From: Clostridiaceae bacterium
GTDB lineage: Bacteria; Bacillota; Clostridia; Oscillospirales; Acutalibacteraceae
Assembly: GCA_030530095.1 (NCBI GenBank)
Contig: JAUMVO010000002.1
Location: 124,001 to 188,000 of the forward strand
DNA length: 64,000 nucleotides
Direction of reading: 5' to 3'
The notes beneath the pieces were generated by a model. That model was not told where the DNA came from, did no database searches, and worked only from the letters and a program-made list of their open reading frames with translations. Positions 11,481 to 17,064 of this stretch are shown one piece after another. Positions within the stretch are counted from its first letter, which is position 1, and each line of letters starts with the position of its first letter. Made by a program: the position numbers and the translations under genes.

Positions 11481-11617
11481 GCCTTAATTGAATCATGTAC
11501 CGTGTTGGTCCTGTGCGACAGAGCTCTGTGAATCATGTCAGGCGGGGAACCGAGCAGCATTAAGCGGTCAGCCTGTGCGATACAGTCAAGCCTGCACGGT
11601 GCATGACTGAATTAAGG
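11481..11617 (+). ncRNA. ffs: Signal recognition particle RNA (bacterial small type)
   Basis: The ends form one long hairpin: CCTTAATTGAATCATGTACC at the 5' side pairs, with a few mismatches, to the matching strand ending in GAATTAAGG at 11617. The apical part carries the conserved SRP motif with a GGAA tetraloop (GTCAGGCGGGGAACCGAGCA, then GCATTAAGCGG). The RNA binds Ffh and targets nascent membrane and secreted proteins. At about 137 nt it looks like the short form without a full Alu domain. Its place directly before dnaX is the usual Firmicutes arrangement. Confidence 0.9.
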
Positions 11618-14832: not shown

Positions 14833-15183
14833 GGGGACGAAAGGATTTCGACGGGGATTTTGAACCGTGATAAGCGAGCAGCGGCGAGGAACCGCTATAA
14901 ACTCCTCAAGTTTAGAAATAAACGACAACAATACAGTTTTACGCGCTGCCTAATTTAAGGTAGCTGTTCCCCGGGGGAGTACTGCGGCCCCTGACGGAGC
15001 ATCAAGCAGCAGTAAATGTGAACGGATGAGCGTCCCGTATTCCGTCACAGACAACGGGACTACCGAAGCTTAAAGCCTGCCGTCAGGCGTTTTGCAGAGG
15101 GAATTACAATTTAACGGCTACGCTCGTAGAAGGTTACGGTAAGAGGTTTTCGGACGCGGTTTCGACTACCGCCGTCTCCACCA
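14833..15183 (+). ncRNA. ssrA: Transfer-messenger RNA (tmRNA)
   Basis: The 5' end GGGGACGAAAGGATTTCGAC and the 3' end TTCGACTACCGCCGTCTCCACCA-type terminus (CCA at 15181-15183) mark a one-piece tmRNA of 351 nt. The tag frame ends GCT GCC TAA at 14945-14953. Reading back, it encodes NDNNTVLRAA preceded by an ATA codon (14918-14920). With the upstream TAG element at 14913-14915 at the usual distance, ATA would be the resume codon, giving an Ile-started tag rather than the common Ala. The AA end is normal for proteolysis signals. It tags stalled peptides and frees ribosomes, with SmpB. Confidence 0.95.
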
Positions 15184-15184
15184 T

Positions 15185-15210
15185 GAAAAACCGCCTTTCG
15201 GCGGTTTTTC
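15185..15210 (+). terminator. Rho-independent terminator of the tmRNA
   Basis: An 11-bp stem GAAAAACCGCC/GGCGGTTTTTC with a TTTC loop starts 2 nt after the tmRNA CCA end. Confidence 0.92.
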
Positions 15211-15350
15211 AGCTAAATACGCCTGACGGCGTGCTAAATTGACTTCGTCAGCTAAGAGCTAAATGTGCCTTTGGCACGCTGAGGCGTATTTTATTTAGCT
15301 GTTTTCGTAAGAAAACTATTTAGCGTTTTCCGAGAGGAAAACATTTAGCT
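15211..15350 (+). repeat. Symmetric GCTAAAT/ATTTAGC hairpin array
   Basis: Three direct heptamers GCTAAAT (15212-15218, 15233-15239, 15258-15264) are mirrored by three inverted ATTTAGC (15293-15299, 15318-15324, 15343-15349). The first and last extend to 8-bp matches, as does the inner pair. Five short hairpins fill gaps: ACGCC-TGAC-GGCGT, TGAC-TTC-GTCA, GTGCC-TTT-GGCAC, GTTTTC-GTAA-GAAAAC and GTTTTCC-GAGA-GGAAAAC. A degenerate seventh copy (GCTAAGA, 15251) and GGCGT (15283-15287) add to it. The whole can fold as a nested stem with side hairpins. It lies between the tmRNA terminator and a four-helix-bundle gene, whose ribosome site follows 9 nt later. Confidence 0.9.
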
Positions 15351-15370
15351 AATCCAATAGGAGTATTCAT

Positions 15371-15733
15371 ATGTCAGAAAGTATAATGCTAAACAAATCA
15401 AAAGAATTCGCCGTTGATATAGTAAATATCTGCAAATCAGTAAAGTCCGTTCACAAAGAATCGGTTTTGACAAACCAATTACTTCGTTGTGGTACTTCAG
15501 TAGGAGCAAATATTTTTGAATCAAAATATGCTCAGTCAACCGCTGACTTCATTTCAAAAATGCAAATCGCCCTTAAAGAGTGTTACGAAAGCGAATACTG
15601 GCTTGAGCTGTTGTTCAAAACTGATTATATCAACGAGGAAGACTATAAAAAGCTCAACGATGAGTGCGGCAATATTAGAAGAATGCTGATTTCTTCAATC
15701 AACACATCAAGGCAAAAAGGATATAATCAATGA
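15371..15733 (+). CDS. Free-standing four-helix-bundle protein (23S rRNA IVP family)
   Basis: A 120-residue, mostly helical protein of the S23/IVP family (TIGR02436-type by recollection). Hallmarks are a first helix near KSKEFAVDIVNICK, LTNQLLRCGTSVGANIFESK (about 35-54), a third helix with DFISKMQIALKECYESEYWLELL, and a final helix ending MLISS. Relatives are encoded in intervening sequences of 23S rRNA or act as Avd in diversity-generating retroelements; they form pentamers and bind nucleic acid. Here there is no rRNA and no reverse transcriptase. AGGAG lies 7 nt before the ATG. The stop overlaps the cca start (ATGA). The gene is visibly more A+T-rich than its neighbours, suggesting recent arrival. 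Confidence 0.85.
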   Translation: MSESIMLNKSKEFAVDIVNICKSVKSVHKESVLTNQLLRCGTSVGANIFESKYAQSTADFISKMQIALKECYESEYWLELLFKTDYINEEDYKKLNDECGNIRRMLISSINTSRQKGYNQ

Positions 15734-17064
15734 CATTCTCACTCCCACCGCAAGTAAATAATGCTATACGGCTGTTGAAAGACAACGGCTTTGAGGCGTA
15801 TTGCGTGGGCGGCTGCGTGCGCGATATGGTTATGAAGAAAGAGCCGCACGACTATGACATTACAACCAGTGCGGCACCCGAGGAAATGAAGCGGGTTTTT
15901 GACGGTTTTCGCGTTATCGAAACGGGCATTAAACACGGCACGCTTACCGTACTTTCCGACGGTATGCCGCTTGAAATAACGACTTACCGAGTTGACGGCG
16001 AGTATCTTGACAACCGCCATCCCGATACTGTCACCTTCTCACGCGAGCTTAAGGACGACTTGTCAAGACGCGACTTTACGGTAAACACGCTCTGCTATAA
16101 TGAGGACGAGGGAATTATTGACCTTTTCGGCGGTATTGAGGACATTAACAATAAAACCATACGCTGTGTCGGAGAGCCCGATAAACGCTTTTCAGAGGAT
16201 GCGTTACGTATAATCAGGGCGTTACGCTTCGCGGCAGTGCTCGGATTTGAAATAGAGCCCGAAACTGCAAAAAGTATATTAAAGAATAAAGACCTGCTTT
16301 CAAACATAGCCATCGAACGAATCAGAGACGAATTCACAAAGCTTATCTGTGCAAATAAGGTTCACGGACTTCTCAATGAATATCACGCCGTAATCGAGGT
16401 GTTTTTGCCCGAAATCGCGGCTTTGCGCGGCTGTGAGCAGAACACGCCATACCACATCTACGACGTCTTTGAGCACACTTTACGGGCTGTTGACGGAATT
16501 GAAAGCGATAAGGCACTCAGGCTGACAATGCTTCTGCACGATATCGCCAAGCCCGTTTGTAAAAAGACCGACGAAAACGGTCAGGACCACTTCAAGGGAC
16601 ACGCGCTCGTCGGTTCCGGCGAAGCGCTCAATATACTCAAACGCCTTCGATACGATAACAAGAGCGTTGATAAGGTCTGCAAGCTGATTGCGATACATTC
16701 CCTGCCCGTTCCAAACACCAAGGCGGAAGCCAAGCATTTTCTGAACGAGCACGGAGTTGAAAACAGTTTGGATTATATTAAAGTCAGGTTTGCTGACCTT
16801 TCCGCAAAGGCAAACCCGCACTGTCAGGATGAAAGGCTCAAGCGCTTCAGAGGTTTTATTGATGAGATAACAGCCGGTAATGAGTGCTTTACTCTCGCAC
16901 AGCTTGAAGTCAACGGAAACGATTTGAAGGAAATAGGCATAACGAACGGCAAAGCGATTAACCGCGTGCTGTCGGTACTGCTGACAGAGGTAATTGAGGA
17001 AAGCATTGAGAACAAAAAAGAAGCCCTTCTTAAAAGGGCGAAAGAATATGCAAAAACGCAATAA
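15730..17064 (+). CDS. cca: CCA-adding tRNA nucleotidyltransferase
   Basis: A 444-residue class II nucleotidyltransferase that adds or repairs the CCA end of tRNAs. The active site shows CVGGCVRD (25-32) and the metal-binding pair D41 and D43 (DYDIT). The RRDFTVN and RIIRALRFA motifs come next, and an HD-type domain follows in the middle (LLHDIAKP). Length and order suit the bacterial CCA enzyme with an HD domain. Its start overlaps the preceding gene by 4 nt and its ribosome site (AAGG) lies inside that gene, so the two appear translationally coupled. Confidence 0.93.
   Translation: MTFSLPPQVNNAIRLLKDNGFEAYCVGGCVRDMVMKKEPHDYDITTSAAPEEMKRVFDGFRVIETGIKHGTLTVLSDGMPLEITTYRVDGEYLDNRHPDTVTFSRELKDDLSRRDFTVNTLCYNEDEGIIDLFGGIEDINNKTIRCVGEPDKRFSEDALRIIRALRFAAVLGFEIEPETAKSILKNKDLLSNIAIERIRDEFTKLICANKVHGLLNEYHAVIEVFLPEIAALRGCEQNTPYHIYDVFEHTLRAVDGIESDKALRLTMLLHDIAKPVCKKTDENGQDHFKGHALVGSGEALNILKRLRYDNKSVDKVCKLIAIHSLPVPNTKAEAKHFLNEHGVENSLDYIKVRFADLSAKANPHCQDERLKRFRGFIDEITAGNECFTLAQLEVNGNDLKEIGITNGKAINRVLSVLLTEVIEESIENKKEALLKRAKEYAKTQ

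Follow-up and report, generated by a model that had tools for sequence, protein, structure and literature searches.

IVP (S23) proteins are probably sequence-specific binders of nucleic acid, and the arrays of repeated heptamers found upstream of many IVP genes are their cognate sets of binding sites, a reading to which we give a probability of about 0.65. That the array and the IVP gene found in the window (the whole 64,000-nt stretch of DNA analysed here) are partners is highly likely from covariation, in a comparison with about 200 relatives. We propose that each IVP subfamily would read its own heptamer, referred to below as its word.

The array between the tmRNA and cca genes

The array lies behind the tmRNA gene (ssrA; 14833–15183, forward strand; ARAGORN and Rfam RF00023), which ends in an encoded CCA. 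This is followed at 15184–15211 by a palindromic terminator-like hairpin, TGAAAAACCGCC-TTTC-GGCGGTTTTTCA, on the forward strand, recognised from the sequence and from comparison with a close relative, genome G023. The left half of the array (15212–15264, forward strand) has GCTAAAT at 15212, 15233 and 15258, and hairpins at 15219–15232 and 15240–15257. The centre (15265–15292, no strand assigned) consists of a hairpin, GTGCC-TTT-GGCAC, and then an unpaired stretch. The right half (15293–15349, forward strand) has ATTTAGC at 15293, 15318 and 15343, and hairpins at 15300–15317 (loop GTAA) and 15325–15342 (loop GAGA). Three copies therefore face three copies at steps of 21, 25, 35, 25 and 25 nt, and all five gaps contain an inverted repeat, exactly as a preliminary description of this DNA had reported; its starting coordinate of 15211 needs correction, as the first heptamer begins at 15212. 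Chance alone would give a mean of 14 matches to GCTAAAT/ATTTAGC in the whole window; it contains nine, six of which are clustered within 138 nt (15212–15349).

The IVP reading frame (15371–15733, forward strand, 120 residues) starts 21 nt after the array, and its stop overlaps, as ATGA, the start of a nucleotidyltransferase gene of the cca type (15730–17064, forward strand). The name cca was adopted from the preliminary description and agrees with the order of the neighbouring genes. The same description had placed the array between the tmRNA terminator and an IVP gene that overlaps cca, and all of this is borne out: the protein scores 102 bits against PF05635 (cut-off 33.8) and 113 bits against TIGR02436 (cut-off 24). 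Residue 4 of the protein is Ser, and base 7 of its word is C. Its five closest homologues among the matches listed (L189–L193, 69–73% identity) all have GCTAAAT words. At the Rfam gathering threshold only tmRNA, SRP RNA and tRNAs are found in the window, and the array corresponds to no known RNA family. The SRP RNA is of the bacterial small type (RF00169), at 11502–11600, upstream of a dnaX-type gene.

A structure model of the window IVP (pLDDT 94) predicts helices at residues 2–28, 32–53, 57–83 and 89–118. The model matches 2RLD with a TM score of 0.91, which places the protein within the four-helix-bundle family, and it also matches 2GSC (the Xcc0516 pentamer). The predicted fold is shared with the Avd protein of diversity-generating retroelements (DGRs), with weaker matches to 4DWL (E 0.027, TM 0.76) and to 8UBE, a chain of a DGR ribonucleoprotein (E 0.066, TM 0.72). 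No reverse transcriptase and no template/variable repeat linked to the window IVP was seen, and the only reverse transcriptase of the source genome is on contig C7, while the window is on C13; the avd-linked reverse transcriptase that marks a DGR is lacking here. Word arrays are not known as a feature of DGRs.

The S23p of Xanthomonas is described as a toroidal homopentamer (PMC4990558), and Avd as a member of a pentameric four-helix-bundle family with a link to the IVP family (PMC10053308). Because the solved relatives are ring-shaped homopentamers, we suggest that successive subunits of the IVP ring would take successive words, one word per subunit. The accessible text of PMC4990558, PMC10053308 and PMC11270868 assigns no function to IVP/S23 proteins.

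Words upstream of IVP genes and the protein that goes with them

The test for an array was at least five copies of one 7-mer, on either strand, within 300 nt upstream of the reading frame. The first set was drawn from PF05635 matches, present in 36 of 59 genomes; 92 of the 96 matches listed were used together with their flanks, the others (G055:C19, G013:C169, G039:C108 and G035:C28) being fragments or below the cut-off, and four lacked the flank. Of 88 loci, 39 have at least five copies upstream and 3 have them downstream; control pieces taken from these loci reach that number in 2 of 318 cases. The second set comprised named Clostridia (the best 80 of at least 589 pattern matches) plus 17 viral loci, and gave 58 of the 91 with flank upstream; the downstream count was 4 of 95, and the controls gave 9 of 632. 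Three loci of this set (L204, L231 and L251) are identical or nearly identical to loci of the first set and were dropped from later tests. Words in the first set include ATTTAGC, ATTTCAC, ATTTCAT, ACATCAT, ACATCAC, ACTTCAC, ATATCGC, ATATCAT and AATTCAT, although some of the top words counted are A-rich or palindromic and probably noise (for example at L016, L096 and L125). One genome may contain IVPs with different words: the source genome has ATTTAGC, ATTTCAC and ATATCGC. The remaining 49 of 88 loci have fewer than five copies and so no array by this test, and subfamilies such as MESPLLDKSLEFA or NIIENKSF have none by the upstream 7-mer test. At four loci (L025, L090, L105 and L121) word arrays are also found downstream of the IVP gene, and at three of these (L025, L105 and L121) they are inverted relative to the upstream arrays.

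IVP genes were also sought in plasmids. The 27 plasmid records found by tblastn were mostly from Nostoc and other cyanobacteria; in the 14 of these that were examined, 12 have a 7-mer that occurs four times or more on one or both sides of the IVP gene (control 1 of 56). In most cases the words follow one another without a gap, and the orientation on one side of the gene is often the reverse of that on the other. In cyanobacteria, intergenic heptanucleotide repeats are known as STRR. Runs of period 7 of at least 14 nt occur at 9 of the 14 loci, and runs of period 5, 6, 8 or 9 at none. In other phyla, the proposed sites would be directly tandem words with a period of exactly 7.

Several of the plasmid IVP genes are located inside defence clusters (L177, L178, L185, L186, L187 and L188). 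The defence contexts seen include an IVP between HsdS and HsdR in Monoglobus, between DrmD and PglX in Planktothrix, beside csx2/cas1 in Pseudanabaena, with a helicase and a methyltransferase in Dolichospermum, and between DUF1156 and Swt1-HEPN genes in Gloeocapsa and Chlorohelix.

The control counts of the two sets and of the plasmid loci reject chance repeats. They also make it scarcely credible that the arrays are ordinary intergenic terminators or attenuators in which repeats have arisen by chance. Arrays do come after terminator hairpins and do contain hairpins, as such an origin would have it; yet the words change strand once, and once only, in 86 of 97 arrays, and in the source genome the pattern GCTAAATN{3,33}GCTAAAT has 12 matches (forward/reverse) in four arrays, as against none for the control pattern.

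The word follows the protein. Across 68 loci, a repeated 6-mer is shared by 22 of 23 pairs with a protein identity of at least 0.8 and by 100 of 2096 pairs below 0.6; the mean identity of pairs sharing a 6-mer is 0.603, compared to a permutation maximum of 0.504. At 51 new array loci of Clostridia among the matches listed, the word of the nearest training protein occurs at least four times in 45, and ranks first of 25 words in 41 (the 25 include shifted forms of one word). Random training words gave a mean of 4.7 and a maximum of 11 in 300 draws.

The rise of word sharing with protein identity is also what would be expected if array and IVP were a single cassette with a shared history and no interaction, so that likeness of words simply mirrored relatedness. 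We regard this as unlikely. In 225 pairs of loci with the same word and 60–80% protein identity, the upstream DNA, with words masked, can be aligned (over 60 nt) in only 21; by this measure the words persist while the remaining upstream DNA diverges. Common descent would also have to account for unlinked dispersed elements, which carry the words of IVPs from their own genome, and for the correlated changes in protein and word described next.

A relation between single positions was found in 65 loci whose word has a core ending in TCA and a consistent seventh base. Where residue 4 is Ser, base 7 is C in 22 of 22; where it is Asn or Asp, base 7 is T in 42 of 43, the exception being L119 (C7). 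This holds within each of the cores ATTTCA, ACATCA, ACTTCA and ATATCA. The loci used to test the relation are those in which it was noticed. The tested columns were masked in building the tree, which has 15 path-disjoint contrasts in base 7; residue 4 changes concordantly in 14, discordantly in none, and is unchanged in one. When all columns are ranked for tips with T against tips with C, residues 7 and 4 come out on top (22 and 16 of 30, the next having 10). Arg or Lys at residue 7 goes with C at base 7 in 21 of 23. These data suggest that residue 4 predicts base 7 of the word, and residue 7 may contribute to its reading. In the proposed mechanism, it would be the N-terminus of the IVP, through residue 4 and perhaps residue 7, that reads the last base of the word.

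For bases 1, 2, 3, 5 and 6, the highest mutual information is with columns 103, 100/75, 65, 57/74 and 6, respectively. In the structure model the order of these positions would run along helices 3 and 4. Base 3 and residue 65 give three concordant, one discordant and two unchanged contrasts (n = 6), and the base–residue pairs at residues 65, 75, 100, 57 and 6 mostly fail or are not settled by contrasts. Recognition rules for these bases were set aside and a rule is claimed for base 7 only, since contrasts for the others are few and mixed.

The preliminary description had proposed the array as the nucleic-acid partner of the protein, to be checked by covariation of the heptamers as RNA stems. 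Because the heptamers of one array are all the same word, that is the wrong test: as far as sequences can tell, what covaries with the protein is the word, and not a heptamer stem. The proposal gains from the tracking of word and subfamily in new genomes and from the covariation of residue 4 with base 7, but GCTAAAT arrays also occur away from IVP genes.

Hairpins, promoters and the likely substrate

The gaps between words are usually hairpins. In 330 gaps between words on the same strand, 9–30 nt long, a stem of at least 3 bp is present in 79%, and the mean stem is 4.08 bp, compared to 2.16 in shuffled gaps. Read on the word strand of the gene-proximal words, the loops of the left half are GN(N)A in 74 cases, TN(N)C in 3 and other in 29, and those of the right half GN(N)A in 39, TN(N)C in 6 and other in 67. 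GNA and GNNA loops are reported to form exceptionally stable DNA mini-hairpins (PMC4686876). We envisage that the mini-hairpins between the words would be spacers that fold away, so that words 9–19 nt apart could still be engaged.

The heptamers of the window array had been suggested to pair 1–6, 2–5 and 3–4 as a nested stem. With DNA parameters this is exactly the free optimum of 15212–15349 (−31.9 kcal/mol), but with RNA parameters a different fold is slightly better (−50.0 compared to −48.4 kcal/mol for the nested one). The region does fold well as RNA: the fold of 15183–15375, which includes the terminator, has z = −7.27, and none of 200 shuffles was as good. RNA structure was rejected as the main signal, there being no Rfam family for the array and the nested fold not being the RNA optimum.

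It is worth considering whether the partner might nevertheless be RNA, the array being transcribed and bound by the IVP in autoregulation of its mRNA, in the manner of type III toxin–antitoxin systems, or as Avd–RNA. This we consider doubtful. Apart from the stable fold, and the similarity to Avd (including the ribonucleoprotein chain 8UBE), it draws on the short distance between the last word and the start codon: of 104 array loci, 43, among them that of the window, have less than 40 nt here. Such a space leaves no room for a separate promoter, and at these loci the mRNA may include the right half of the array. Against it, a promoter-like sequence (at least 9 of 12) lies between the last word and the reading frame at 46 of the 61 loci that have a space of 40–160 nt, and in 23 of these 46 no more than about 4 nt separate the end of the last word from the start of the −35 box. 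In addition, the mirror halves place the loop–word unit on opposite strands, the nested fold is second best as RNA, and the array lies behind a terminator. As for a type III toxin–antitoxin system, which would have direct RNA repeats ahead of an endoribonuclease toxin, PF05635 was the only family found in the window protein, and the window repeats are mirrored rather than direct.

Our preferred reading, that the IVP binds the words of its array, would have DNA as the favoured substrate, probably the word strand, either single-stranded or extruded as a nested cruciform. DNA is favoured because GNA/GNNA loops are found on the word strand in both halves, because the nested fold emerges with DNA energies, and because a promoter frequently lies between array and gene.

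Mobility, dispersed copies and related systems

In 40 of 96 arrays, the first exact word comes no more than 14 nt behind the end of a stem of at least 9 bp, as against 1 of 96 in the control. Of 93 array loci, 50 have a tRNA or tmRNA gene in the same orientation, of many isotypes, in the 550 nt upstream of the IVP; the control figure is 1 of 89. We propose that terminator, array and IVP would form a compact element at the 3' ends of tRNA and tmRNA genes.

The ssrA–cca gap could be compared in G023 only, since elsewhere the listed genes are not neighbours and four genomes have no cca match. G023 matches the window at 98.2% identity for 1683 nt, as far as 15183. This position is the final base of the tmRNA and the exact left boundary of the inserted segment; identity (90.2%) resumes at 15731, at the start of cca, which forms the right boundary. 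Between these, G023 has 297–298 nt of other sequence, with a different terminator, a fragment like the 3' end of ssrA and a promoter-like stretch. Since the window terminator is unlike that of G023, the hairpin at 15184–15211 probably belongs to the segment. On this comparison, terminator, array and IVP are gained or replaced as a block, at a site that is otherwise conserved; it is a replacement and not a clean empty site, and shows no direction. The earlier suggestion of a small mobile unit, to be checked at this gap, therefore holds in so far as the segment 15184–15730 is absent in a close relative and units of array plus IVP lie behind many different tRNA genes; but the unit contains no recombinase gene and no enzyme was found, and at the compared site, which is filled by other sequence, a target duplication may have gone unseen.

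ARAGORN located 31 ssrA loci, two of which are unreadable behind ssrA, and in seven (G000, G033, G035, G030, G055, G057 and G038) a mirror array comes directly after the terminator. In G035, G030, G057 and G038 no IVP follows this array, and the G055 contig breaks off within it. Fragments like the ssrA 3' end, with their own CCA and terminator, follow ssrA at L288 (G023:C134), L160, L161 and L174, and look like repeated integration at ssrA.

Three of the four GCTAAAT arrays of the source genome have no IVP. The array on contig C18 is 92% identical to that of the window and lies directly behind a terminator hairpin, with no IVP match on the contig. The other two, on C8 and C38, are part of a longer dispersed repeat, a few hundred nucleotides in length (L045, L046 and L304–L323), which starts with CAAATCGGAGTTTATCGAGGTCTTCGACC, contains GTAGGGGCGATTCACGAATCGCCC and has many copies in the source genome. 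Its GTGAAAT form was aligned in 17 copies, 14 from the source genome and three from G023, of which three are cut by contig ends and one (L307) has a deviating word; its GCTAAAT form is found on C8 and C38, and there are further GCTAAAT pairs in G023. The flanks and hairpin stems of the two forms are the same, with two hairpins swapped, and all four words are switched. The source genome has one IVP with the word GTGAAAT and another with GCTAAAT. We suggest that copies consisting of an array only would be satellites of the terminator–array–IVP element.

Pairs of GCGATAT number 11–38 in all six genomes that have the cognate IVP (in G055 its word is ATATCGA), and reach 11, a threshold chosen afterwards, in 2 of 53 other genomes (G045, 49; G042, 27). 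GTGAAAT pairs, by contrast, are common in genomes whose IVPs have other words (31 in G046, 20 in G057), and no cognate IVP was found for the GCTAAAT arrays of G055 and G057. In G055 there are five mirror arrays of GCTAAAT, and among its nine IVP matches none of the GCTAAAT subfamily was found. The link in trans between words and cognate IVP thus appears weaker for GTGAAAT and GCTAAAT than for GCGATAT. Strict co-occurrence of array and IVP at the level of genomes holds only partly, and the expectation that arrays would go with PF05635 genes stands for enrichment upstream of individual genes but is imperfect across genomes.

These inverted hairpin units beside a dedicated gene, with dispersed copies, resemble REPtrons, in which one gene (TnpA_REP/RAYT) has dispersed cognate units of motif plus hairpin, often inverted (REP/BIME; PMC8266576). 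The arrays might then be REP/BIME-like satellites moved by a Y1 (RAYT) transposase or a reverse transcriptase, with the IVP as a passenger. This is very unlikely, as it leaves the link between word and IVP unexplained. Moreover, the Y1 transposase domain PF01797 has no match in the source genome (95.8% complete), G038, G046 and G058, and PF00078 has one match in the source genome and none in G038, G046, G051 and G058, these absences being provisional as the genomes are drafts. A constantly linked Y1 transposase or reverse transcriptase was rejected, as neither domain is constant in array-rich draft genomes. Under the reading that IVPs recognise the words, catalysis would therefore have to be supplied from elsewhere than the IVP, and the bound array would most likely serve maintenance or spread of the element, together with autoregulation of the IVP.

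The resemblance to REPtrons, which lies in short motifs placed at hairpin bases, in their inverted pairing and in their dispersal, is one of plan only: there is no homology between the IVP and a Y1 nuclease, and the IVP motif is a variable 7-mer that we propose to be read by a residue of the protein. A second relative is the intervening sequence (IVS) of 23S rRNA, which shares the protein family and a link to a stable-RNA gene, and for which one case is reported, and not generalised, of two to three heptameric repeats in tandem immediately before the S23p reading frame; the accessible text calls it a selfish element and makes no tie between repeats and protein specificity (PMC4990558). In contrast, the window unit lies outside rRNA, between tmRNA and cca, and its array is mirrored and contains hairpins. 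Many genomes, of cyanobacteria, Beggiatoaceae and Bacteroidetes, also have heptanucleotide repeats such as TAACTGA; these are intergenic arrays of 7-nt period that lack an explanation, and the accessible text names no protein partner for them (PMC4679880). Because the window system lacks a defining feature of each system compared, we rate this kind of system as new; it works most like a REPtron. The preliminary description knew of no account of such a pair, and within the accessible text of the open-access literature we found none linking IVP proteins to heptamer arrays in general, with PMC4990558 as a partial precedent for one S23p. The partnership of the IVP family with repeated DNA is to this extent new as a general link.

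The implications may be wider, with a likelihood that we place a little short of even. IVP/S23 proteins could be word readers throughout the bacteria, with a simple code from residue to base. Their cognate sites would then include the heptamers of the 23S IVS and the heptanucleotide repeats known from cyanobacteria and other phyla, and dispersed elements could switch all their words together to suit another IVP. If so, the function of the IVP and the mechanism of heptanucleotide repeats would become one testable question, with the concrete prediction that Ser4 reads C7 and Asn4 reads T7, and a small, helical and apparently retargetable word reader would represent a new type of sequence-recognition module.
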